Assembly (NCBI GenBank): GCA_003152485.1
Contig: PMAE01000020.1
Span: 26,695 to 69,279, forward strand
DNA length: 42,585 bases
Direction of reading: 5' to 3'
Source of the DNA: Gemmatimonadota bacterium
Lineage (GTDB): Bacteria; Gemmatimonadota; Gemmatimonadetes; Gemmatimonadales; Gemmatimonadaceae
A model generated the notes under the pieces. That model was not told the origin of the DNA, made no database searches, and saw nothing but the letters and a program-made list of their open reading frames with translations. Numbering within the stretch: the stretch's first letter is position 1; each line of letters starts with the position of its first letter. Below, piece after piece: positions 20,374 through 30,315 of this stretch. A program made the position numbers and the translations under genes.

Positions 20374-22851
20374 CTACACGCCGAGACTCAGTCGGAATTG
20401 GATCATGAACGGGCGGCCGACCGAGGCGCCGCTGAAGAAGGCGCCCTTCAGCAGGTACGTGTGGTCGAAGAGATTCGTGACGAAGATCTCAGGACGGACG
20501 TACGTCGCCCGAGCGAAGAAGGTGTATCCCAAGCTCAGGTTCTGGATGTAGCTCGGCGGCACTTTGAATGCGCGGTTGAAGCAGAACAACCCCGTGCAGT
20601 AGCTCTTGTTGCCCGGCTGGTAGCTGTTGCTGGCGACACTCCCGGTGTCGTTGGGGACGTTCCCGTCCGGGTTGTAGCCGTTCGTGAGGCCCGTTCCGTA
20701 GATCCCGGTGGCACTCACGTAGAAGCCATGCGCACTGTACATGGCGTTCGCGACGCTCGACATATGCTGGTCGTGATCGAGGTCGAAGTAGTCGTTCGGC
20801 GTCTGCGTCGGAAAGAATCCCCCCGTGATCGGTCCGATACCGTATGCATGATTGAGGGCCAAGTTGACATACCCGGATACTGGTCCGCTGGGCTTGAACT
20901 CCACCACGCTCTCGATGCCGGTCACCCAGATGTGACTGATGTTGACGTCAGTGGTGATGGCCGAGCCGGGAATGGTCGTATCGTCGATGCCGGGCGTACT
21001 CTCCTTGTGATAGCCGGAGAGCTTGGTCACGATACCGAATGGGAAGCGGTGGATGTACCCGACCTCATAGAACGCGTCGCGCTCGGGTAGGGTCGGTGAA
21101 GTCACGACGTTCTCGTCGGCTTGCTGCGTGATCGATCGTAGGTCCTCGATGTTGGTCGGATAGAAGAGGCGGCCGAAGTACAGGTAGAACGTGTTCGACG
21201 GCGTAGGAAAGAAGTTGAGTCGGATGCGAGGACTGGCCTGGGTCTGGTTCGCCGCGAACGGCTCCACGTGACTGTCGAAACGCAGCCCGGTGCGGAGCTC
21301 GAACCACTCCACCGGACGGACCGATGTCTCCGCGTAGGCGCCCCAGTCGTACCCATCGAGTCCGGAGACCGACGCGATGGGGGGCTGTACGCCCGTCGGA
21401 TCGGTGAGCTGGAAATTTTCGTGTCCGAAGGTGTGTGAATAGTTCGTGCCGATTTTGCCGTCCATGAGGCCTGTCACGACCGGAAAGGAGAAATCCGCTT
21501 TCACGCCCCCGATGTCGAAACTCCGATCCTCATAGACGTCGCGTGGCGTCGCCGTCGGGTCGCTCGCATCGAGGAACGACGGTACGTCGGCCGCGCCAGG
21601 TCGGTAATTCAGCGATCCCTGACGGAAATACGGTCCGATGAACAGCTCTGGCGGTTGGCTTCGCTCGTCGGTGCCCAAGGAATCCCCGAACCGGTGCCGA
21701 TAGGACAGGTTCACGAAGGCGTTGACGTCGGTCTGGTGGTCGTTGAGCGTCGCCACCGTCGAATCGTACGGGACGTCGAAGTGCGTCGTCGAGTAGTTCG
21801 CGTCCAGTGAGATCAGGTCGTGCGGGCCGGCTGCGTATTGCAGCTTGCCGAAGCCGAACAGATCCTGCCCATGGTTGTGGTAGTTGATTGGCGCGTCATT
21901 CGTGCCCCCGATGACTGGCTCGAGCCGCATGTCCGTTCCCTGCGCTTCGCCCGAGAAGAACATGCCCAATTTGCCCTTGTTGCCGCTCATGGTGAGCGAC
22001 TGACCCATCGCGTTGTAGGTGCCGTCGTACGTCGACTCTTCCATGTGGAACGGCCCGGTCGGGACCTTGGTCTGGATGTTGATGACGGCGGCGATACGGC
22101 CGCCGTATTCGGCGTCCCACCCTCCAGTCTGGAAGTCGATGTTCTGCACCACTTCGGGGTCGAACAGCTCGTTGAGGGAGCCCGAGATGCCTGGGGGCAC
22201 GGGCACGCCGTCGATGAAGTAGGTGTATTCGGCGTGCTGGCCGCGTATATGTACTTCGCCAGTGGGTGCCCGGGCGGCTCCGGCGATGGCCTGCTGGATG
22301 ATCCCCGACGTCGTCGTGCTGGGTGCAGTTCGGGAATCGCTTTCGTTGTACGTCTGGTCGCCGGTCCTGGTATCGACGGCGACCGGCGACTGGCCGGAGA
22401 CCTGGACCTCGGCGAGGGCTGCCGCTGCGGTCGAGAGGTGAAAATCGATACGCGTGGTGCCGCTCGTGATGGTGAGCGGATGGGTTTGCGACGCGTAGCC
22501 GATGAAATGGACGACGATGACGTAGTCGCCGACCGAAAGGTCGTGAATGATGAACCGTCCAAACGGATCCGTCGTCGTGTTGGCAACGATGTTCGTCGTG
22601 CGCTGGACGGTCACCTCGGCACTTTGGAGCGGGTGACCGTTGGCGCTGTCGGTGACGGTTCCGATCACGTCGCCGGATGTCGGTGGATCCCCCGGCGTCG
22701 ATCCGACAGCCACGACCGATCCGGCGCGTAGATGAACGGCCGCGTGGGCGGGGACGGCAATTGCGGCGGCCGCGAGGGCCAGACCGATGGACAGGGCGCG
22801 CGCGGCGCACGCGTGGCGCTGCGCACGGAACCGGTGAAGCACTGTGAGCAC
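20374..22851 (-). CDS. TonB-dependent outer-membrane receptor with CarboxypepD_reg domain
   Basis: 825 residues from the GTG at 22851, which has GAGG 8 nt upstream. It has a signal peptide ending near AHA, then a carboxypeptidase-regulatory-like beta domain (GDVIGTVTDSANGHPL ... VGDYVIVVHFIGY). The plug follows (STTTSGIIQQAIAGAARAP, VHIRGQHAEYTYFIDGVPVPP, with IAAVINIQTK), then a 22-strand-type barrel ending NLFDHTYLLKGAFFSGASVG and FMIQFRLSLGV. Such receptors import metal chelates, cobalamin or oligosaccharides using TonB energy. A small His/Cys-rich exported protein precedes it and a HEAT protein follows. The copper link is by neighbourhood only. Confidence 0.93.
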   Translation of the reverse strand: MLTVLHRFRAQRHACAARALSIGLALAAAAIAVPAHAAVHLRAGSVVAVGSTPGDPPTSGDVIGTVTDSANGHPLQSAEVTVQRTTNIVANTTTDPFGRFIIHDLSVGDYVIVVHFIGYASQTHPLTITSGTTRIDFHLSTAAAALAEVQVSGQSPVAVDTRTGDQTYNESDSRTAPSTTTSGIIQQAIAGAARAPTGEVHIRGQHAEYTYFIDGVPVPPGISGSLNELFDPEVVQNIDFQTGGWDAEYGGRIAAVINIQTKVPTGPFHMEESTYDGTYNAMGQSLTMSGNKGKLGMFFSGEAQGTDMRLEPVIGGTNDAPINYHNHGQDLFGFGKLQYAAGPHDLISLDANYSTTHFDVPYDSTVATLNDHQTDVNAFVNLSYRHRFGDSLGTDERSQPPELFIGPYFRQGSLNYRPGAADVPSFLDASDPTATPRDVYEDRSFDIGGVKADFSFPVVTGLMDGKIGTNYSHTFGHENFQLTDPTGVQPPIASVSGLDGYDWGAYAETSVRPVEWFELRTGLRFDSHVEPFAANQTQASPRIRLNFFPTPSNTFYLYFGRLFYPTNIEDLRSITQQADENVVTSPTLPERDAFYEVGYIHRFPFGIVTKLSGYHKESTPGIDDTTIPGSAITTDVNISHIWVTGIESVVEFKPSGPVSGYVNLALNHAYGIGPITGGFFPTQTPNDYFDLDHDQHMSSVANAMYSAHGFYVSATGIYGTGLTNGYNPDGNVPNDTGSVASNSYQPGNKSYCTGLFCFNRAFKVPPSYIQNLSLGYTFFARATYVRPEIFVTNLFDHTYLLKGAFFSGASVGRPFMIQFRLSLGV

Positions 22852-23096
22852 TGAACGATCCTCGTCGGCAGGAGATGGCGAGGACGTCGCATGACGCGCC
22901 GTCCTCGGCCACGGCGCGACGCGTCCGCGGACGCGGGCGTCGGCCATGGCGACTGCTGCGGAGGCCGGATCGCGGTGTGTCGCTCGGCCGATCGTGCCGC
23001 ACGCGGCGGCAGCCCGAATGGGTGTGCCGCGGAGGCCGATCAGTTGAGTGGGGTGCGCACTCGTCGCGTGGGCGACGGGCGCGTTACGCGGTCCGG
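22852..23096 (-). promoter_or_regulatory. Leader region upstream of the minus-strand TonB receptor
   Basis: 245 nt between the small exported protein and the receptor. It holds an 8-bp perfect inverted repeat (CGAGGACG 22879-22886 with CGTCCTCG 22900-22907) and a perfect 16-nt palindrome at 22920-22935. I see no open frame with protein character. It may be a structured leader, but such repeats are common at this GC content. Confidence 0.35.
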
Positions 23097-23447
23097 CTAG
23101 ACGAGGACCGGTGGTCCGCGAGAACGGGGAAGTGCGCCGAGCGCGGCGGGCGCATGGCCGAGGAGTGCCGCGACCTGCGGCCGCACGGTCGCGCTGGGCA
23201 GTGGTGCGGCGCGCGGTACGGCCGGCTTGTCGAACGCGGTGGCGAGGTACTGACAGATCGCGCAGTCGTCGGTGTGGACCCGCGCACATTCGGGACGACC
23301 GTGGGCCTCGATGTGCGAGGCGGCATTTGGTTGGTTGCCCGCCGCTTCGAGCTGAGCATCGGCCAACGCCGCGGCCGCCGGTCCGGTGAGCTGGACCAGC
23401 GCGACGACCAACGCCAGGAGCCGCAGATGCAGTTTACGCAGCCGCAC
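23097..23447 (-). CDS. Small exported His/Cys protein, DUF2946-like
   Basis: 116 residues from the GTG at 23447. It has a basic start and a hydrophobic signal (LRLLALVVALVQLTG), then a compact metal-ligand cluster (HIEAHGRPECARVHTDDCAICQYL with His, Cys and a CxxC). A proline/alanine tail ends in SRGPPVLV. This order (signal, H..C..H..CxxC, RGPP end) is that of DUF2946-type proteins, usually found beside TonB receptors or copper genes. No ribosome site exists, but a TACAAT element ends 7 nt before the GTG, so the mRNA may be leaderless. It is followed by the TonB receptor. Confidence 0.7.
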   Translation of the reverse strand: MRLRKLHLRLLALVVALVQLTGPAAAALADAQLEAAGNQPNAASHIEAHGRPECARVHTDDCAICQYLATAFDKPAVPRAAPLPSATVRPQVAALLGHAPAALGALPRSRGPPVLV

Positions 23448-23454
23448 GATGGGG

Positions 23455-23460
23455 ATTGTA
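23455..23460 (-). promoter_or_regulatory. -10 element TACAAT for a leaderless transcript
   Basis: TACAAT on the minus strand lies 7 nt before the GTG of the DUF2946-like gene, placing the expected transcription start at the start codon. No good -35 was found. Confidence 0.5.
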
Positions 23461-23681
23461 TATCCGTCCGGGTGGAAATACCAGGCGCCGTGGCGCAGCG
23501 AGATCGCGTTGCCCGACCCTATTAGACGCATGGTCATCGCCCAGGGGTTCCGGGTCGAGAGACCGAAGGGCATCGGCGTGCGTGGGGCTTGGCGCATGGG
23601 TATTGGGGGGATTGCGACTCTGGCCAGCCGGCCGTCTCCGACCATTGAGCTGTGCCATCTGGCCTCCGGGCCGCCCGTCAC

Positions 23682-23687
23682 TAGATT
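23682..23687 (+). promoter_or_regulatory. -10 element TAGATT for a leaderless transcript
   Basis: TAGATT ends 7 nt before the ATG at 23695, mirroring the divergent TACAAT. There is no Shine-Dalgarno sequence between them. Confidence 0.45.
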
Positions 23688-23694
23688 GTCGCCC

Positions 23695-24135
23695 ATGCGG
23701 TCCCCACTACGGCGATTCTTCGCGGGACTCTTCGGCCTCTGGATGACCATCACGGTCTCCGGGATCTCGCTGCAAGCGTGCCCGGAGCACGGTGGTGGCT
23801 GGCTTGGTGGAGCCGTGGACACGGGCATGCACCACGACCCGGCCTCTCCCATGACCGCTGACATGGCGGCCGCAATGGTCGCGGGCCATCGTGGCCACGA
23901 TGGCGATGCATCGGGCGCGGGACATGGCGGCCATCACGGGCATCAATGCACGTGTCCGGGCGCATGCTGCACGACCGGCTTGGTGAGTGTGCCCCCGGGC
24001 CGCCTGGTCGCGATTCCCGTTGTGCCCGTCGCCGTCGCGGCGGCGGCACCGCTCGTTTTTCGTGACGTCGCACCGCGCGCTGCGCCCGACGTCGTGATCC
24101 CTCCGCCACTCGGTCCCCCCGCGCAGAGCGTCTGA
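23695..24135 (+). CDS. Small exported His/Met/Cys-rich protein, first gene of the copper cluster
   Basis: 146 residues. The signal-like start (RRFFAGLFGLWMTITVSGISLQAC) is followed by a stretch packed with His and Met (GMHHD, MTADMAAAM, HRGHDGD, GHGGHHGHQ). Next comes a cysteine group (CTCPGACC), then a hydrophobic Val/Ala/Pro tail. The Cys after SLQA might be a lipobox cysteine (weak). The composition argues for copper or zinc binding in the periplasm. It precedes a TonB receptor, copC and copD on the same strand. Its stop codon lies next to a perfect hairpin. I do not recognise a named family. Confidence 0.7.
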   Translation: MRSPLRRFFAGLFGLWMTITVSGISLQACPEHGGGWLGGAVDTGMHHDPASPMTADMAAAMVAGHRGHDGDASGAGHGGHHGHQCTCPGACCTTGLVSVPPGRLVAIPVVPVAVAAAAPLVFRDVAPRAAPDVVIPPPLGPPAQSV

Positions 24136-24207
24136 CCCCGGTTACGGGGTCGCGCTGGGGCGACGCGCCGGATATGCGTCGCCGCGGGTCAGGGACACTA
24201 TGTCCCT
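24134..24207 (+). promoter_or_regulatory. Structured leader with three perfect stem-loops before the TonB receptor
   Basis: The 98-nt gap before the receptor start holds three exact hairpins in a row. First is GACCCCG/CGGGGTC (24134-24151, 4-nt loop). Second is GGCGACGC/GCGTCGCC (24159-24183, 9-nt loop). Third is AGGGACA/TGTCCCT (24191-24207, 3-nt loop). The GGAG ribosome site (24224-24227) follows. The first begins at the stop of the upstream gene and could act as an attenuator; the third could also be a protein operator. No known riboswitch signature was recognised. Confidence 0.5.
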
Positions 24208-24233
24208 CCCGTCGGACCTGTGCGGAGATCTAC

Positions 24234-26636
24234 ATGTCATTCGATGGGGATGTGCGCACCGCCTCCGCGGTTGCGCACACGCGCGGTGCCCCGCCCACGG
24301 CGGTATCGACGCGACGACCGATTGGCGATGGGCGATGGGCGACGGGCGGCCGGCGTATCGAAGGTGCGTTAGCTCGTGCGCGTCGCGTGTTGGTGTCGCT
24401 GACAGCCATCGGGATCGCGGTGGGTGGCGCGGCGGGCGTGGCCGCGGCGCAAGTGCCAAGCAGTCACCCCGACACGAGTGCACAGTCACGGACCACGTCG
24501 GCGGATAGCGCGGGTGCGGCGGCGTTCGCGGACTCGCTGGCCGACACGCTGCCCCACAGATTGCGGCGGCGGCGATCCGCGCCTGAGGCGGTCGCTCCGG
24601 CATCGCGCCGCGCATCGGCTGCGGCCGATACGGTGCCCAACTCCGCGGCCGGGACACCGCGGCGCGACCTGTCTGCGCGTCGCGATTCAATGGCCCGCGG
24701 AACCGCCCGGCTGGGCGCGGTCACCGTGACGGCGACGCCGGTACAGCCGACGGAGCCCGTCAGCGCGGTCACGGTGACGCCGGCGGCGATTTCCCAAACG
24801 CCGGCGAATTCTCCGTACGAACTCTTACGGGAAACCGCGGGCGTCGAAGCACACGAGCAGGGTCAGGGTCCGGGGTTCGGGTCCGACCTGTCGATCCGCG
24901 GGTTCAGCTCTGACCACTCGACGGACATCGCGCTGTGGATCGACGGCGTGCCGATCAACGAGCCGGTCAACGGGCACGCCGAGGGCTACAACGACTTCAA
25001 TCTCATGTTCCCGGAAGCGGTGAGCGGGATCGACGTGATCAAGGGTCCCACGAGCGCGCTATTCGGAAATTTCGCGTTCTCGGGCGTCGTCAACGTTCGC
25101 ACCCTCGAGCATCTCGACGGCACGCAACTCCAGTTGACCGGCGGGAGCTACGGCAACGGCGAAGGCGTCGTCTTGACCGGGTTCGATAACGGCGGAACGC
25201 GCGGGGTGCTGGGTCTCCGGGTCACCCACGATGATGGATGGCGCCCGCATGGGGAAAACCAGATCGGCCAGCTGCACGCCCGGTATCTGCACGACCTGAC
25301 GCGGTCGGTCACGCTCGATCTGGGGATCGAGGGGTTCGCCACCAGCTACAACTCACCGGGGTTCCTGGATACGGCGTCGTACTTGGCGAAACAGTATGGC
25401 GTGGTCTCGAACTTCGGCGATGGCGGGTTCAAGCGTCATGCACAGGAGCGCGCCAGCGTTCGCGTCGTGCTGTCGCCGTCATTGTTCTGGCGGAGCACCA
25501 TGTATGCGACGGAGGGCACGTGGAATTTTTGGTTGAGCACGCCGCCGGGGCTGGGCGGCGAGCTGGAAGGGTCGGGAATCGAGACGCGAGAGTACGATGG
25601 CCGGTACGGCGGCGGCGCGACGAGCGCGCTGACGTACAGTGTACCCGGGATCCAGGTGACCGCGGGCGGTGAGTCACGGTACGACCACTCCCACTATGAG
25701 AATTGGGGCGAAGCAGCCAGTGGTTTTCGCCAAGACTCAGTGCCGTTCGCGATCGTGCAGGCGCATCAGCTCTCCGGCGGCCTGTTCGTACAGAGCAACT
25801 TCGACGTCACCAAGTACCTCCGCGTGGACCTCGGCGGTCGCGTGGACCAGCTCTCGAGTAGCGCGCTCCAGCCGATGGCACTCGCGCCCGACACGATCGG
25901 TCCAAATGTGCAGAGCCAACACAGCAAGGGGGTGTTCTCTCCGAAATCCGGCCTGTTGTTCCGGCTCCTACCGTGGGCGGGTGTATACGTGAACGCGTCT
26001 CGCGGATTCCGGCAGGCGGACGGCGTGATTCTCGATCCCACCGTCCCGTTCATCACATTGTGGGACTACGAGGCCGGAGTGAAGATCGACCGCGGCCCGT
26101 TGTCCATCGACGCCGCGGTGTTCCGCATGGATCTGAGCAACGAGCAGTCGTTCAACGGGGTGACGACGATCAGCGGCGGTCCGAGCCGGCGGCGCGGGGT
26201 CGACGTGACGGCCCAGGCCGCGGTGACGCCGGATGTGACGCTCTCGACGAGCTTCACAGTGCTCGATGCGAAGTACACGCGCTATTTCGACTCGGACGCG
26301 GGGATCGACTATTCGGGCCAACCGGTGTTCAATACGTCGAGATTCGTGGGGGACGCGGCTATCGCGGTCATGCCACACCACTCGATCTGGCGGCTGCGGG
26401 TGGGAAGCAATTTCCAGGGACAATACACGCCCTTCGAGGAAGCGGTCGGCCTGACGCGCCCGGCGTTCGCATTGCTGTACGCCAGCGGCGGCGTCCGGGT
26501 CGGGCACGGCGTCAGCATCGAGGCGGGCGTTCGGAACATCCTTGACACGCAATATCGGGAGCTCGAATCGGGATATTTCATCGCCCCGGGCGAGCCCCGC
26601 GCACTTTACGGGACGGTCCACTACGACATCTTCTAG
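24234..26636 (+). CDS. TonB-dependent receptor, probably for copper or a copper chelate
   Basis: 800 residues from the ATG at 24234, with GGAG about 6 nt upstream. It has a long basic n-region with a hydrophobic signal (VLVSLTAIGIAVGGAAGVAAA), a 110-residue Ser/Ala/Arg linker and a possible TonB box-like stretch (LGAVTVTATPV). The plug has RETAGVEAHEQG, LSIRGFSSDHSTDIALWIDG and GIDVIKGPTSALFGNFAFSGVVNVRT. The barrel ends VRNILDTQYRELESGYFIAPGEP and finishes in aromatic YDIF. Substrate is not readable from sequence. Location between a His/Met-rich protein and copC-copD suggests copper. Part of the n-region is encoded by a GCGATGG-type spacer repeat. Confidence 0.92.
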   Translation: MSFDGDVRTASAVAHTRGAPPTAVSTRRPIGDGRWATGGRRIEGALARARRVLVSLTAIGIAVGGAAGVAAAQVPSSHPDTSAQSRTTSADSAGAAAFADSLADTLPHRLRRRRSAPEAVAPASRRASAAADTVPNSAAGTPRRDLSARRDSMARGTARLGAVTVTATPVQPTEPVSAVTVTPAAISQTPANSPYELLRETAGVEAHEQGQGPGFGSDLSIRGFSSDHSTDIALWIDGVPINEPVNGHAEGYNDFNLMFPEAVSGIDVIKGPTSALFGNFAFSGVVNVRTLEHLDGTQLQLTGGSYGNGEGVVLTGFDNGGTRGVLGLRVTHDDGWRPHGENQIGQLHARYLHDLTRSVTLDLGIEGFATSYNSPGFLDTASYLAKQYGVVSNFGDGGFKRHAQERASVRVVLSPSLFWRSTMYATEGTWNFWLSTPPGLGGELEGSGIETREYDGRYGGGATSALTYSVPGIQVTAGGESRYDHSHYENWGEAASGFRQDSVPFAIVQAHQLSGGLFVQSNFDVTKYLRVDLGGRVDQLSSSALQPMALAPDTIGPNVQSQHSKGVFSPKSGLLFRLLPWAGVYVNASRGFRQADGVILDPTVPFITLWDYEAGVKIDRGPLSIDAAVFRMDLSNEQSFNGVTTISGGPSRRRGVDVTAQAAVTPDVTLSTSFTVLDAKYTRYFDSDAGIDYSGQPVFNTSRFVGDAAIAVMPHHSIWRLRVGSNFQGQYTPFEEAVGLTRPAFALLYASGGVRVGHGVSIEAGVRNILDTQYRELESGYFIAPGEPRALYGTVHYDIF

Positions 26637-26655
26637 CCCGGCGATCGACCCGCGC

Positions 26656-26661
26656 TTGACA
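26656..26661 (+). promoter_or_regulatory. Possible -35 element TTGACA before copC
   Basis: A consensus TTGACA lies 32 nt before the copC ATG. No convincing -10 follows at the right distance, so an internal promoter for copC-copD is only suggested. Confidence 0.25.
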
Positions 26662-26693
26662 TAGCTTTCGGATCCATCCTCTTCCCCTCGCGA

Positions 26694-27188
26694 ATGTCAA
26701 CTCCACAATCCGCTGTTCTCGCCGCCCGCTGGTCCCGAGTAGCTGTCGTCGGCGCAATCCTGATGATCGGCGTCGGCGCCGCGCCATCGACACCTGCCGC
26801 GCGACGAGCATCCGATCGCGTGTCCGGCACTCGCGCCCGGCAGCTGCAGTTGCACCTGCACCGACACCTGCACCTCGAACGGTCGGAGCCCGCGGCCAAC
26901 GATACGGTCACGGCGGCGCCGGCGGCCGTCCGGCTGTGGTTCTCCGAGCAGCCCGAGCTGGCCGTGACGACCGTGCGACTCAGTGCCACGGGTGGTGGAC
27001 CGATCGCGGTCGCGCCGCTCACCCGTGATGCTGGGGCCGACGCTCCGGTCGTCGCCCCGTTGCGCGGGCCGTTGGCGGCCGGAGTCTACACGGTGTGGTG
27101 GCGGTCCACGGCGCGCGATGGGCACGTTTCAACGGGCCAGTTCCAGTTCGTCATCGCGCCGCCCGGATCGAAAGCCGGCGCGAAATAG
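26694..27188 (+). CDS. copC: Copper-binding periplasmic protein CopC
   Basis: 164 residues. It has a signal peptide (VAVVGAILMIGVGAA) and then the CopC beta-barrel: HLHLERSEPAAND (the usual mature N-terminal His plus SxPA motif), VRLWFSEQPE and the C-terminal YTVWWRSTARDGHVSTGQFQF with its Asp-Gly-His copper ligand. Between the signal and the domain is an odd alternating tract (QLQLHLHRHLHLE). CopC binds Cu(II) and passes it to CopD for uptake or delivery. copD follows after 26 nt. Confidence 0.93.
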   Translation: MSTPQSAVLAARWSRVAVVGAILMIGVGAAPSTPAARRASDRVSGTRARQLQLHLHRHLHLERSEPAANDTVTAAPAAVRLWFSEQPELAVTTVRLSATGGGPIAVAPLTRDAGADAPVVAPLRGPLAAGVYTVWWRSTARDGHVSTGQFQFVIAPPGSKAGAK

Positions 27189-27214
27189 GGACTCGATCGC
27201 GCGGACGGTTTGGA

Positions 27215-28189
27215 ATGGATGGGGGTCTTTCGACGGCGGATGTCGTCGCGTGGCTCGGCCGATGGGTGATGCTGGCGGGGATCACCATCTCGGTTGGCGC
27301 GGTGAGCTGCCGGCTGCTGCTTGGCATGGTCGGCCAGCCGCTGGAACCGCTGCCCGACCGGGCGCGCCGAGCCGCGTCGTTGGGGATGTGGGCGTCGTTC
27401 GCGGTGCTGCCCGCCGCGCTCGTGCGGCTCGGCACCGAGGTCATGGACCTCGCTGACCCAGGCCAAACGTGGTCTGATTGGGTGCATCTCGCGGGGACGG
27501 TGCTCAGCCACACGCATTGGGGGTTGGTGTGGGTCGTACACGTCGCGATCGCGGTCGTCGGGAGCGCGGCGTTCGCGCGTGCGCGGACGGGGTCGCACCG
27601 GGCGTGGACTGCCGCGGGGGTCTGTGCGGTTGCATTGGCCGCCACCCCGGCGTTTGCCGGACATGCGGCGGCCGTCGAACACCACCGCGCGATCGTGATG
27701 ACGGCCGACGTGCTGCACGTCCTTGGCGCCGGCGCCTGGATTGGCACTCTGTGTGTGCTCGCGAGCGTCACGCTCTGGAGCGAGCCTCGCTCACCAGGGC
27801 GTCGCCGCGCCCCCGAAGAATGGGGGGCCGATATCGCCGGGCTGATACGGGCGTTCTCCCCCGTGGCGCTGACATCCGCGGCTGTCATGGCGGTGACCGG
27901 CAGCGTCGCGGCGTGGACCCATCTCGACCGAGTGGCATCGCTGTGGCAATCCGGGTATGGCCGGGCGTTGCTCGTCAAGCTTGCGCTGGTGGCGCTCGTG
28001 CTGGCAGCCGGCGCTTACAACTGGCAACGAGGCACGCCGGGGCTGACTGCACCCGGCGGCGGCGGGGTACGAGCGTTCACCCGGTCGGTGTCGGTCGAGA
28101 TCGCGCTCGGCATGCTCGTGCTGGTCGTCACGGCGGTATTGGTCGGGATGCCCATGCCGATGCCCATGACCATGCCCATGGCGCACTAG
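27215..28189 (+). CDS. copD: Copper transport membrane protein CopD with Met-rich tail
   Basis: 324 residues with eight hydrophobic segments. CopD features are GRWVMLAGITISVGAVSCRLLL at the start, GHAAAVEHHRAIVMTADVLHVLGAGAWIG (in part; conserved histidines) and GYGRALLVKLALVALVL near the end, the usual copper resistance D domain. The last residues are a repeat of Met with Pro or Thr (GMPMPMPMTMPMAH), a plausible Cu(I) site facing one side of the membrane. Works with CopC to bring copper into the cytoplasm or to a cuproenzyme. A separate gene here, whereas many bacteria fuse CopC and CopD. Confidence 0.93.
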   Translation: MDGGLSTADVVAWLGRWVMLAGITISVGAVSCRLLLGMVGQPLEPLPDRARRAASLGMWASFAVLPAALVRLGTEVMDLADPGQTWSDWVHLAGTVLSHTHWGLVWVVHVAIAVVGSAAFARARTGSHRAWTAAGVCAVALAATPAFAGHAAAVEHHRAIVMTADVLHVLGAGAWIGTLCVLASVTLWSEPRSPGRRRAPEEWGADIAGLIRAFSPVALTSAAVMAVTGSVAAWTHLDRVASLWQSGYGRALLVKLALVALVLAAGAYNWQRGTPGLTAPGGGGVRAFTRSVSVEIALGMLVLVVTAVLVGMPMPMPMTMPMAH

Positions 28190-28233
28190 CCGGTTCGTCG
28201 GCCCCCGTCGCGGCGGCCGTGCGGCACAGCCAA

Positions 28234-29745
28234 TCACCGCATCGTCATCCCGGCCGACATCTCGTCGGCCCCGTGCGAGTGGGCGGGGCGAATTCTCAGG
28301 TAGACGCCGATGCCGCCCGGGGTGCGGGTGTGGTATGTCGCGGCCAGCGTTTGTGGGATGGCGTCGAGGGTCAGCACGGCGCCGATGCTCGTCGTGAGGT
28401 ACGGCGTGAGCCGACCGATCACGCGGGCGTAGCCGATGCTGGCGGATCCGATGTTGAAGCGATCGGCCGCCGGTGGAGGGGGCGTGTCAACGAACAGATC
28501 GGCGGGTGATTTCGCGACGTACTCGAGCCGACCGAACACCGTGTTCGCGCCATCCAGATCGAGGTTCGATTCGACGAGTGCACTGTTGGACAGCCGGGGA
28601 TCGTTCGAGTAGAGATTCGCGCCGTAGATCAACGCGCTAGACCACCGCCCGCGGCTGCCGAAGGCCCGATCATTGAGGACTGAAGCACCAAGCCGGTGCT
28701 GCGAAACGGTCGGCTCGAGTTGCTCCGGGCGGTGCAGATATGCATACCACGTCGAGACGCTCCAGCCAGCGTCAGGGTTCACGGTGAGTCGGCCAGAATA
28801 CGAGTCGAGGACCGGCCCGTGGTCGTCGTACTCGATGTCGGATCGGTGTTGATCGGGCTCGTGGCCGTTGAAGAAACTGGATTCGAGCTTGATGTCGTGG
28901 GTGTAGATCCCAACTGTCGCGACACCGAAAGAAATGTGGGTAGCGTCTTGCCAGTGATGCGACAATGGCGCGAAGGGGTCGCTCTGTGCGGACGGTCGAT
29001 GGGGGAACGCCACTGGTCCTACAGCCGGCTCGCCGACCGGAGCCGCGTAGACCTGGACGGCCAGTCCGTGGGCGATCGGCGTGTCGTAGATGGCCGCCAA
29101 CTCCATGAACAGATTGTGCGGGTGTTGCCGGTCGTGGAGCGGCGTTCCGTTGAATGCTTCGCCGGATTGGAGAATGAGCGGATACCCACGGGGAGACGTC
29201 GTCCACGGGTCGGCGCTGAACATTCCCCGGAGGCCGAGTTGACCGTCGCCCAGCGCGTGCGTTGCGGCGCCCATGAGCCATCCGATTCCCACCAGTTGGG
29301 TAGCGCCGCGGCTGCCTCCGAACTGCTGGTCGTAGGCGCCGAATTCGACGCCGTGGATCATGAGCTGCCAACCGCCGATCGGAATGAGTTGGGCGTGCAT
29401 CGGCGCGCCGTCCGGAAGCCACGACGTCCCTGAGCCCTGGCGGGTCATTCCAATCCCGAGCGGTCCGGCGCGCATGTGCATCGTGGGTGAGCCGCTATCC
29501 GCGGGCATCTCGGCCATAGCAGCCATCGCGGGTGCGCTGCCCTGTGCGCCGCCCAGTGCGCCACCGCGTGCCGTCCCGCCCCCGTGGGCCGCATCGGCCG
29601 CCGAGTCCTGAGCGGTGTCGGCGGCAGCCGGCGGGGTGGACGCCGGAGACTGCCCGGCGACCGACCGCGCGCTGACGATGGCAAGGGCGAAGAGGGCGCG
29701 TGAGACCGACCGCCGGACAACAACCGGCGTGTGGCGACGGGACAT
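28234..29745 (-). CDS. Outer-membrane beta-barrel protein, His/Met-bearing, copper locus
   Basis: 503 residues. The signal peptide (VSRALFALAIVSARSVAGQ) is followed by an Ala/Gly-rich linker with several Met and His (PTMHMRAGPLG) and then about 400 residues of alternating beta-strand pattern without a TonB plug. Recurrent short motifs include HDRQHPHNLFMELAAIY, HHWQDATHISFGV and SSFFNGHEPDQHR, all rich in histidine; the end is HSHGADEMSAGMTMR. I do not recognise a named family, though proteins like this sit in metal resistance loci. It converges with copD and follows a small His/Cys-rich exported protein on its own strand. Confidence 0.75.
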   Translation of the reverse strand: MSRRHTPVVVRRSVSRALFALAIVSARSVAGQSPASTPPAAADTAQDSAADAAHGGGTARGGALGGAQGSAPAMAAMAEMPADSGSPTMHMRAGPLGIGMTRQGSGTSWLPDGAPMHAQLIPIGGWQLMIHGVEFGAYDQQFGGSRGATQLVGIGWLMGAATHALGDGQLGLRGMFSADPWTTSPRGYPLILQSGEAFNGTPLHDRQHPHNLFMELAAIYDTPIAHGLAVQVYAAPVGEPAVGPVAFPHRPSAQSDPFAPLSHHWQDATHISFGVATVGIYTHDIKLESSFFNGHEPDQHRSDIEYDDHGPVLDSYSGRLTVNPDAGWSVSTWYAYLHRPEQLEPTVSQHRLGASVLNDRAFGSRGRWSSALIYGANLYSNDPRLSNSALVESNLDLDGANTVFGRLEYVAKSPADLFVDTPPPPAADRFNIGSASIGYARVIGRLTPYLTTSIGAVLTLDAIPQTLAATYHTRTPGGIGVYLRIRPAHSHGADEMSAGMTMR

Positions 29746-29860
29746 GAAGTTCTCGAGCGGAGGCCGGGGCGTGGCACCTGTACCCAGATGGTCCGGGCAG
29801 CGACGGTGCACTCCGATGCCGCCGCCGGCGTGAGCCAGCGGCGGGCAGTGCGAACGCAGC

Positions 29861-30259
29861 CTACCGCTTGGGGGGGGGAGAGTCTGGCGCGGCGCGCCGT
29901 GCCGCGGGCGCGATCGTGGTGGCCGACGCGAGCGACTGGCTGGCGACGGCGCGCCCAACTTCCGTCCCGCGGGCGGGGGAGAACACCCCGCGACATGCGT
30001 CCATCCCGGCGCAGCAGCCTTGGTCGTGGTGCGGGTGGTGCGGCAGCTGAGGCGGCCCCAGCGTCGAGACGGCGACCGCGTCTGACGCGATCGTCCCCGA
30101 GGCCGCGCTCGGCGCCACATCTTGGCAGTGACCGGCCGTACCGTGCGGCATGTGGCCAGCGGCGACGTGGTGGGCGACGCACGCGAATAGCGGCGGCGCC
30201 AGGAACATCTGGACCACCGTAACCATCAGCACGAGACCAGCCAGTCCACGGCGCGGCAT
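29861..30259 (-). CDS. Small exported His/Cys-rich protein (third of its kind)
   Basis: 132 residues from the ATG at 30259, with AGGA 8 nt upstream. It has a signal (LAGLVLMVTVVQMFLAPPL, cleavage near the first Cys), then HH, HMPHGTAGHC, a linker and LPHHPHHDQGCCAGMDACR, with five Cys and at least ten His in all. It probably binds copper or a similar metal in the periplasm. A run of nine cytosines (coding strand) precedes the stop, so length could vary by slippage. The beta-barrel gene follows after 115 nt. Confidence 0.7.
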   Translation of the reverse strand: MPRRGLAGLVLMVTVVQMFLAPPLFACVAHHVAAGHMPHGTAGHCQDVAPSAASGTIASDAVAVSTLGPPQLPHHPHHDQGCCAGMDACRGVFSPARGTEVGRAVASQSLASATTIAPAARRAAPDSPPPKR

Positions 30260-30315
30260 CACCGGTATCCTAGCCTCTGATCGCGGGTAAGTCACGCGCC
30301 GCGGGTAGGGCGGGG

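Follow-up and report, generated by a model that had tools for sequence, protein, structure and literature searches.

In Bordetella, the leader protein CruR contains a CxxC pair, a spacer of 45 residues, the motif RAPP and three final residues; copper is sensed by the CxxC of the nascent chain, and RAPP is the site of arrest (PMC9426467). Both RAPP and RGPP have been shown to cause arrest, as has CruR itself in vitro (PMC12992588), and structures of other RAPP peptides are available (PMC10951233). Translation of CutF is reported to arrest on copper addition, with induction, and with a stem-loop between cutF and cutO that shields the Shine-Dalgarno (SD) sequence, and CopL is a cis-acting leader of copper genes (PMC9973294). 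Here we analyzed a 42,585-nt stretch of DNA (the window) from contig PMAE01000020.1, which belongs to a 4.27-Mb genome of Gemmatimonadota type. Around copC-copD, the window encodes three small exported Cys proteins, which we call S1, S2 and S3, each located 98-245 nt 5' of an outer-membrane barrel gene (B1, B2 and B3, respectively). We consider it probable that each of the three is encoded by a leader open reading frame (ORF) that acts in cis, senses metal through an arrest peptide and controls the next outer-membrane barrel.

S1 gave a full-length match to the Pfam profile DUF2946 (E 8e-4, 20.6 bits; curated cut-off 23.7). Of the 179 same-family genomes searched, 70 contained homologues, and when 40 of these were rebuilt and aligned, every one showed the same arrangement of CxxC, 43-45 residues, R[AG]PP, 1-4 residues and a stop codon. 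Overall identity to S1 was only 30-45% for most of them, and the homologues have in common nothing more than CxxC, a few further positions and R[AG]PP. S1 itself reads CAIC-44-RGPP-3-stop and is the first gene of a unit that continues into a TonB receptor, as is typical of CruR/DUF2946 leaders. A rut-site-like bubble of C over G, another feature of these leaders, extends from the CxxC codons of S1 into the intergenic region, with a (C-G) value of 0.176 in the window compared to a mean of 0.092 for the S1 set and a background of 0.002. A search with S1 against plasmid records returned no match. Judged by its sequence, S1 is a CruR-type (DUF2946) leader and hence of a known type. Two genomes carry an additional CruR-type leader behind B1, encoded on the other strand (L169, 4775, minus strand; L178, 4835, minus strand).

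The homologues of S2 and S3 have a comparable architecture with other motifs. S2 homologues combine a His-rich body with a CxCxGxCC-like cluster and tails such as PPPLGPP, RPPSIGPP and LPFANGPP, while S3 homologues carry CC-x5-C-like clusters and the family consensus APEPPPPKA at the extreme C-terminus. The distance between Cys site and proline motif is 44-45 residues in S1, 44-47 in S2 (setting aside two members with additional downstream Cys) and 38-40 in S3, and the proline tail ends 1-5 residues before the stop codon in nearly all S2 and S3 family members. S2 scored 17.1 bits against the NCBIfam profile CopL_fam (NF033807), which has a cut-off of 40 bits; sub-threshold matches to this profile were obtained for 11 of 24 S2 members and 4 of 22 S3 members, and some members of the two families matched CopL_fam or DUF2946 under the cut-off. 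The Pfam scan of the window proteins returned nothing for S3. Because of these matches below cut-off, S2 and S3 look like divergent members of a broader CutF/CopL/DUF2946 group, and their sequences suggest two additional leader families, new variants with their own presumptive arrest motifs. Some S2 and S3 members also weakly match the profiles of LpqS, a mycobacterial copper protein, or DUF6153, and these two families may be leader peptides too. All three window proteins have the properties by which CutF-like proteins were defined (fewer than 150 amino acids, signal peptide, PP in the last 15 residues and a same-strand gene within 1000 nt; PMC9973294), with lengths of 116, 146 and 132 amino acids, gaps of 245, 98 and 115 nt, and signal-like N-termini judged by eye.

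The entire locus is present with identical gene order in a second genome of the same genus (G132), which allowed the tails to be compared with the rest of each protein. In S2, the last 20 codons differ by 0 nonsynonymous and 10 synonymous changes, compared to 35 and 39 in the remainder. In S3, RRAAPDSPPPK is intact with 7 synonymous changes, and 60 nonsynonymous and 23 synonymous changes precede the last 20 codons. These patterns indicate that the leader tails are constrained at the protein level. An alternative is that the proline motifs of S2 and S3 are docking or degradation signals of the exported protein, and GPP and PPPK do differ from the published RAPP/RGPP motif. We nevertheless regard this explanation as quite unlikely, since the tails sit next to the stop codon in almost all members, the Cys-to-tail spacing resembles that of CruR, and the tail codons double as a predicted anti-SD sequence, as described below.

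For each leader, the duplex energies of its segments with the SD window of the barrel gene (-20 to -4) were calculated, and true pairs were compared with pairs swapped between genomes. Cognate pairs were more stable for all three families, by -2.1 kcal/mol for S1 (n=43, p<0.0005), -3.1 kcal/mol for S2 (n=23, p<0.0005) and -1.2 kcal/mol for S3 (n=23, p 0.0035), and this advantage was restricted to the final 18-23 nt of the ORF. No such advantage was seen for other target windows around the start of the barrel gene or in 70 ordinary same-strand gene pairs. After removal of similar loci, the effect stayed clear for S1 and S2, with p values of 0.02-0.05 for S3. Ranked among all windows of its own locus, the SD window was unremarkable for S1 (median percentile 0.47). 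GC-rich regions form stable pairs indiscriminately, which leaves the comparison of cognate with swapped pairs as the only informative one. In the computed fold of the S2-B2 junction, the SD of B2 is paired with the S2 tail codons. Shielding of the next gene's SD by pairing, another CutF-like property, is thereby predicted to be strong for S1 and S2 and weak for the S3 of the window.

The same test on 28 DUF2946 leaders from Sphingomonadaceae, selected by the R[AG]PP tail alone and not by CxxC, again peaked in this part of the leader (p at or below 0.0005), and tail-SD complementarity is therefore not peculiar to one phylum. The Sphingomonadaceae proteins retain R[AG]PP together with one conserved Cys region. 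Many of the Sphingomonadaceae DUF2946 proteins (L312-L347) end in RPPLRGPP or RPPLRAPP and are without a CxxC pair, having instead one Cys approximately 40-50 residues ahead of the tail and a second Cys still farther upstream. We found no mention of Shine-Dalgarno sequences in the paper describing CruR (PMC9426467), and the tail anti-SD appears to be an output element that is absent from the CruR literature we examined.

These results bear on how a leader would act on its barrel. One alternative is that the leaders are arrest peptides whose sole output is Rho-dependent termination in the intergenic region, with the tail-SD pairing being incidental or mRNA-stabilizing. The C>G bubble of the S1 set, which is strong in the window, and the long intergenic regions agree with this explanation, and it is the model proposed for Bordetella CruR (PMC9426467). 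In four independent sets, however, cognate-specific complementarity was limited to the SD window and the last leader codons, and we regard Rho as the only output as unlikely.

An earlier note on this DNA had proposed a copper acquisition or relay pathway in which the small proteins collect metal, or a metal chelate, at or below a dedicated barrel. A role as stable exported collectors or chaperones of metal, supplying the barrel with copper or a chelate, would account for the signal peptides, the Cys/His/Met clusters and the constant linkage to barrels. Yet the S3 body has changed extensively relative to G132 while its stop-proximal tail is fixed, S1 homologues have retained little beyond the two motifs, and RNA complementarity has no role in such a pathway. 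Furthermore, CruR could not be produced and has never been seen in proteomes (PMC9426467), and CutF is degraded after export (PMC9973294). We therefore rejected metal collection as the main function and consider it highly improbable. The leader-ORF reading is favored because the Cys site, the Cys-to-proline distance and the tail-SD complementarity stay fixed while the bodies diverge quickly, a combination characteristic of arrest-peptide leaders that act in cis.

Pairing of leaders with barrels was followed in both directions. Starting from the barrels, among loci with enough upstream DNA, a CruR leader preceded 17 of 27 B1 genes, an S2 leader 24 of 28 B2 genes and an S3 leader 18 of 30 B3 genes, and each barrel type was found only with its own leader type and never with another's. 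Strict patterns for the S1, S2 and S3 leaders occurred 21, 27 and 32 times, respectively, in 1.08 Mb of related loci and 0 times in the same DNA reversed. Looser regular expressions for S2 and S3 had produced spurious matches (L147, L203, L213 and several others), which the strict spacing pattern removed. Starting from the leaders, long ORFs began 13-184 nt past S1 and S2 homologues with few exceptions; 46 of the downstream ORFs were scanned, yielding TonB receptor domains in 26 and an outer-membrane efflux protein in 1, with B1-type barrels lacking a Pfam barrel match. Together with the G132 locus, these counts establish the pairing as real, repeated, conserved and far above chance. The note's view that the pairing is the new-looking element did not hold, since CruR (PMC9426467) and CutF-like proteins (PMC9973294) have already been described before TonB receptors and outer-membrane efflux channels.

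Of the B3 loci in the named collection, 75 had enough upstream DNA, and 29 of these encode a Cys leader whose end reads PPP[KRQ] or GPP...APP, all from Gemmatimonadota and Verrucomicrobiota, and no such Cys leader was present at the Bacteroidota and Myxococcota loci of this collection. Several verrucomicrobial leaders before B3 (L269, L272-L274, L278, L280, L283, L286 and L302) contain two proline motifs (LDTGPP...AHAPP) approximately 18 residues apart, which are possibly two stall sites. The genome containing the window also encodes a fourth S3-like leader (G000 contig C13, 139145-139495, minus strand; L348) with a Cys cluster and the end TPPEIPPPRA-stop. It lies 139 nt 5' of a TolC-like (CusC-like) outer-membrane channel, and similar pairs occur in five other genomes (L349-L353).

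The start of the leaders appears to be promoter-proximal. A TANNNT box beginning 11-17 nt, mostly 13 nt, before the start codon was present in 50 of 83 leaders, the corresponding frequencies being 4.6% for the first ATGs of long ORFs and 1.7% for ATGs in general. Since approximately 60% have such a -10-like box about 13 nt before the start, the leaders look leaderless and first in their transcripts, and the box positions fit mRNAs that begin directly with the leader ORF. The positions of the boxes and of all other features are listed in the table.

Table. Positions in the window of the leader ORFs, barrels, copper genes and predicted regulatory elements.
Feature	Position	Strand	Description
S1, candidate leader ORF	23097..23447	minus	116 aa, signal peptide, CAIC, RGPP, 3 residues, stop
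S2, candidate leader ORF	23695..24135	plus	146 aa, His-rich, CTCPGACC, end PPPLGPPAQSV-stop; CopL/CutF-like
S3, candidate leader ORF	29861..30259	minus	132 aa, CCAGMDAC, 38 residues, PPPKR-stop
S1 CxxC (CAIC), presumptive Cu(I) site	23253..23264	minus	44 residues ahead of RGPP; motif senses Cu in CruR (PMC9426467)
S1 RGPP, putative ribosome-arrest motif by analogy	23109..23120	minus	RAPP/RGPP arrest shown biochemically (PMC12992588, PMC10951233)
S1 predicted anti-SD, last S1 codons CGGUCCUCGUC	23100..23110	minus	11-bp duplex with 22856-22866, -20.8 kcal/mol
B1 SD region GACGAGGAUCG	22856..22866	minus	predicted to pair with S1 tail
S2 Cys cluster CTCPGACC, presumptive metal site	23947..23970	plus	47 residues ahead of GPP
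S2 tail PPPLGPP, presumptive arrest motif	24100..24120	plus	overlaps predicted anti-SD 24101-24116
B2 SD region	24214..24227	plus	predicted to pair with S2 tail codons, -22.0 kcal/mol
S3 Cys cluster CCAGMDAC, presumptive metal site	29993..30016	minus	
S3 PPPK, presumptive arrest motif	29867..29878	minus	
TACAAT, -10-like box	23455..23460	minus	13 nt ahead of S1 start
TAGATT, -10-like box	23682..23687	plus	13 nt ahead of S2 start; kept in G132
TAGGAT, -10-like box	30267..30272	minus	13 nt ahead of S3 start
B1	20374..22851	minus	outer-membrane TonB-receptor-like barrel with CarboxypepD_reg domain
B2	24234..26636	plus	TonB-dependent receptor, plug and barrel (Pfam)
copC	26694..27188	plus	PF04234, E 1e-20
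copD	27215..28189	plus	PF05425, E 7e-18
B3	28234..29745	minus	16-strand porin-like barrel, invariant DRQHPH and HHWQDATH, no Pfam family

We propose the following mechanism. Transcription would start at or beside the leader start codon, as suggested by the -10-like box, and the leader would be translated as an exported protein. When the proline motif (RGPP, PPPLGPP or PPPK) reaches the peptidyl-transferase center, the Cys site, 38-47 residues earlier, would be just out of the exit tunnel; that it has just emerged when the proline codons are decoded is expected from the length of the tunnel. Metal occupancy of the Cys site would then determine if translation of the leader arrests or runs to completion. 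The last leader codons would act as an anti-SD that pairs with the SD of the barrel gene across the intergenic region, such that a ribosome stalled on the proline motif covers the anti-SD and frees the barrel start site, while completion of the leader would let the ribosome depart and switch the barrel off. S1-B1 is expected to share the sign of CruR: low copper would cause stalling and turn the barrel on, and copper would release the stall and turn it off. This shut-off may be reinforced by Rho, for which the C>G bubble after CxxC leaves room. S2-B2-copC-copD and S3-B3 could be subject either to CruR-like repression or to CutF/CopL-like induction. In this scheme we infer arrest by S2 and S3, the identity of the metal, the sign of regulation and the substrates of the barrels.

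Several points weigh against this interpretation. Our patterns detected no leader at 10 of the 27 B1 loci and 12 of the 30 B3 loci. S1 scores under the curated Pfam cut-off for DUF2946, and S2 and S3 match CopL_fam or DUF2946 sub-threshold and in some members only. The constant Cys-to-tail spacing could instead come from a folded domain. The tail-SD signal of S3 is weaker, and the window's own S3-B3 duplex is weak (-11.7 kcal/mol). Finally, the published account of Bordetella CruR invokes Rho termination and no SD switch (PMC9426467).

The layout of the locus largely agreed with the earlier note, with three ORFs and three barrels at the claimed positions and S1 and S2 diverging from a shared region of 247 nt. 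On the plus strand the order is S2, B2, copC, copD. B1 likely starts at GTG 22851 behind the SD GACGAGGAUC, B2 at ATG 24234 (alternatively GTG 24387) and B3 at ATG 29745. The note had ascribed clustered His, Met and Cys to all three small proteins, but S1 has only the CAIC pair and scattered His without a His/Met cluster. Likewise, of the two TonB receptors and one plug-less barrel that had been assigned, B2 has a Pfam plug, no plug was detected in B1, which carries CarboxypepD_reg instead, and B3 is porin-like with 16 strands.

Searches with B1 against sequences in the PDB gave no match, and those with B2 retrieved only distant TonB receptors. The B3 sequence matched neither solved structures nor Pfam. 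Its structural model, with a predicted local distance difference test (pLDDT) score of 88, is a barrel that matches 16-strand porins; no function follows from this fold, because the match is to general porins with a template modeling (TM) score of about 0.5. The invariant motifs DRQHPH and HHWQDATH reside in long loops, which may lie in the barrel lumen. B3 family members occur in Gemmatimonadota, Acidobacteriota, Verrucomicrobiota, Myxococcota, Bacteroidota and Alphaproteobacteria, with one marginal BBP2 Pfam match among 46 members.

In 12 loci, a CopC gene follows B3 on its strand within 77-183 nt, and P-type ATPases are also among the genes downstream of B3. The CopC genes, together with copC/copD in the window and the CruR-type leader, support the copper setting suggested in the earlier note. 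Leaders that sense another metal (Ni, Co or Zn), or the redox or secretion state, are conceivable, given that Cys pairs bind several soft metals and that His-only CutF-like clusters adjoin Ni/Co genes. The adjacent copC/copD and the CopC genes behind B3 argue against this, as does the finding that those CutF-like proteins whose motifs are Cys-rich mostly stand in front of Cu genes, and we think a signal other than copper very unlikely.

Taken together, a regulatory explanation with precise predictions takes the place of the proposed metal relay. It brings Gemmatimonadota into the range of copper arrest-peptide control, with similarly designed leaders preceding B3 in Verrucomicrobiota, and flags B3 as a copper-linked porin-like barrel family outside Pfam. 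The tail anti-SD could explain how stalling on a copper leader is communicated to the next gene and would unite the CruR and CutF models, which differ at present. More tentatively, and at somewhat less than even confidence, we propose that a stop-proximal anti-SD is a general output device of copper arrest-peptide leaders including CruR, and that GPP and APEPPPPKA are additional metal-gated arrest sequences. If these tails are metal-gated, one copper locus would therefore run three ribosome-based switches, one per outer-membrane channel.

Among known systems, S1 most resembles CruR (bp2923, DUF2946/PF11162), the leader of bfrG/crtA in Bordetella pertussis (PMC9426467; arrest, PMC12992588), in having a signal peptide, CxxC, a spacer of 44-45 residues, R[AG]PP, approximately 3 residues and a stop, and in being the first gene before a TonB receptor, with a C-rich 3' half and a long intergenic region. 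Unlike CruR, S1-B1 has RGPP, another type of TonB receptor with CarboxypepD_reg and a probable leaderless start, as well as a complementarity between tail and SD that does not feature in the account given in the CruR paper. CutF, the leader of cutO in Rhodobacter capsulatus (PMC9973294), is similarly an exported Cys leader with a proline-rich C-terminus and an RNA structure shielding the next gene's SD. In contrast to the leaders described here, CutF controls a multicopper oxidase, copper raises expression, and the anti-SD was placed in the cutF-cutO stem-loop, without a cross-genome comparison that matched it to the leader tail. CopL (NF033807) of Xanthomonas and Stenotrophomonas is a cis-acting copper leader whose profile the S2 and S3 families match sub-threshold; the genes downstream of S2 and S3 encode outer-membrane barrels rather than CopA. 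In SecM and other arrest-peptide leaders, a C-terminal stall likewise alters access to the downstream SD, with SecM sensing protein export and not metal.

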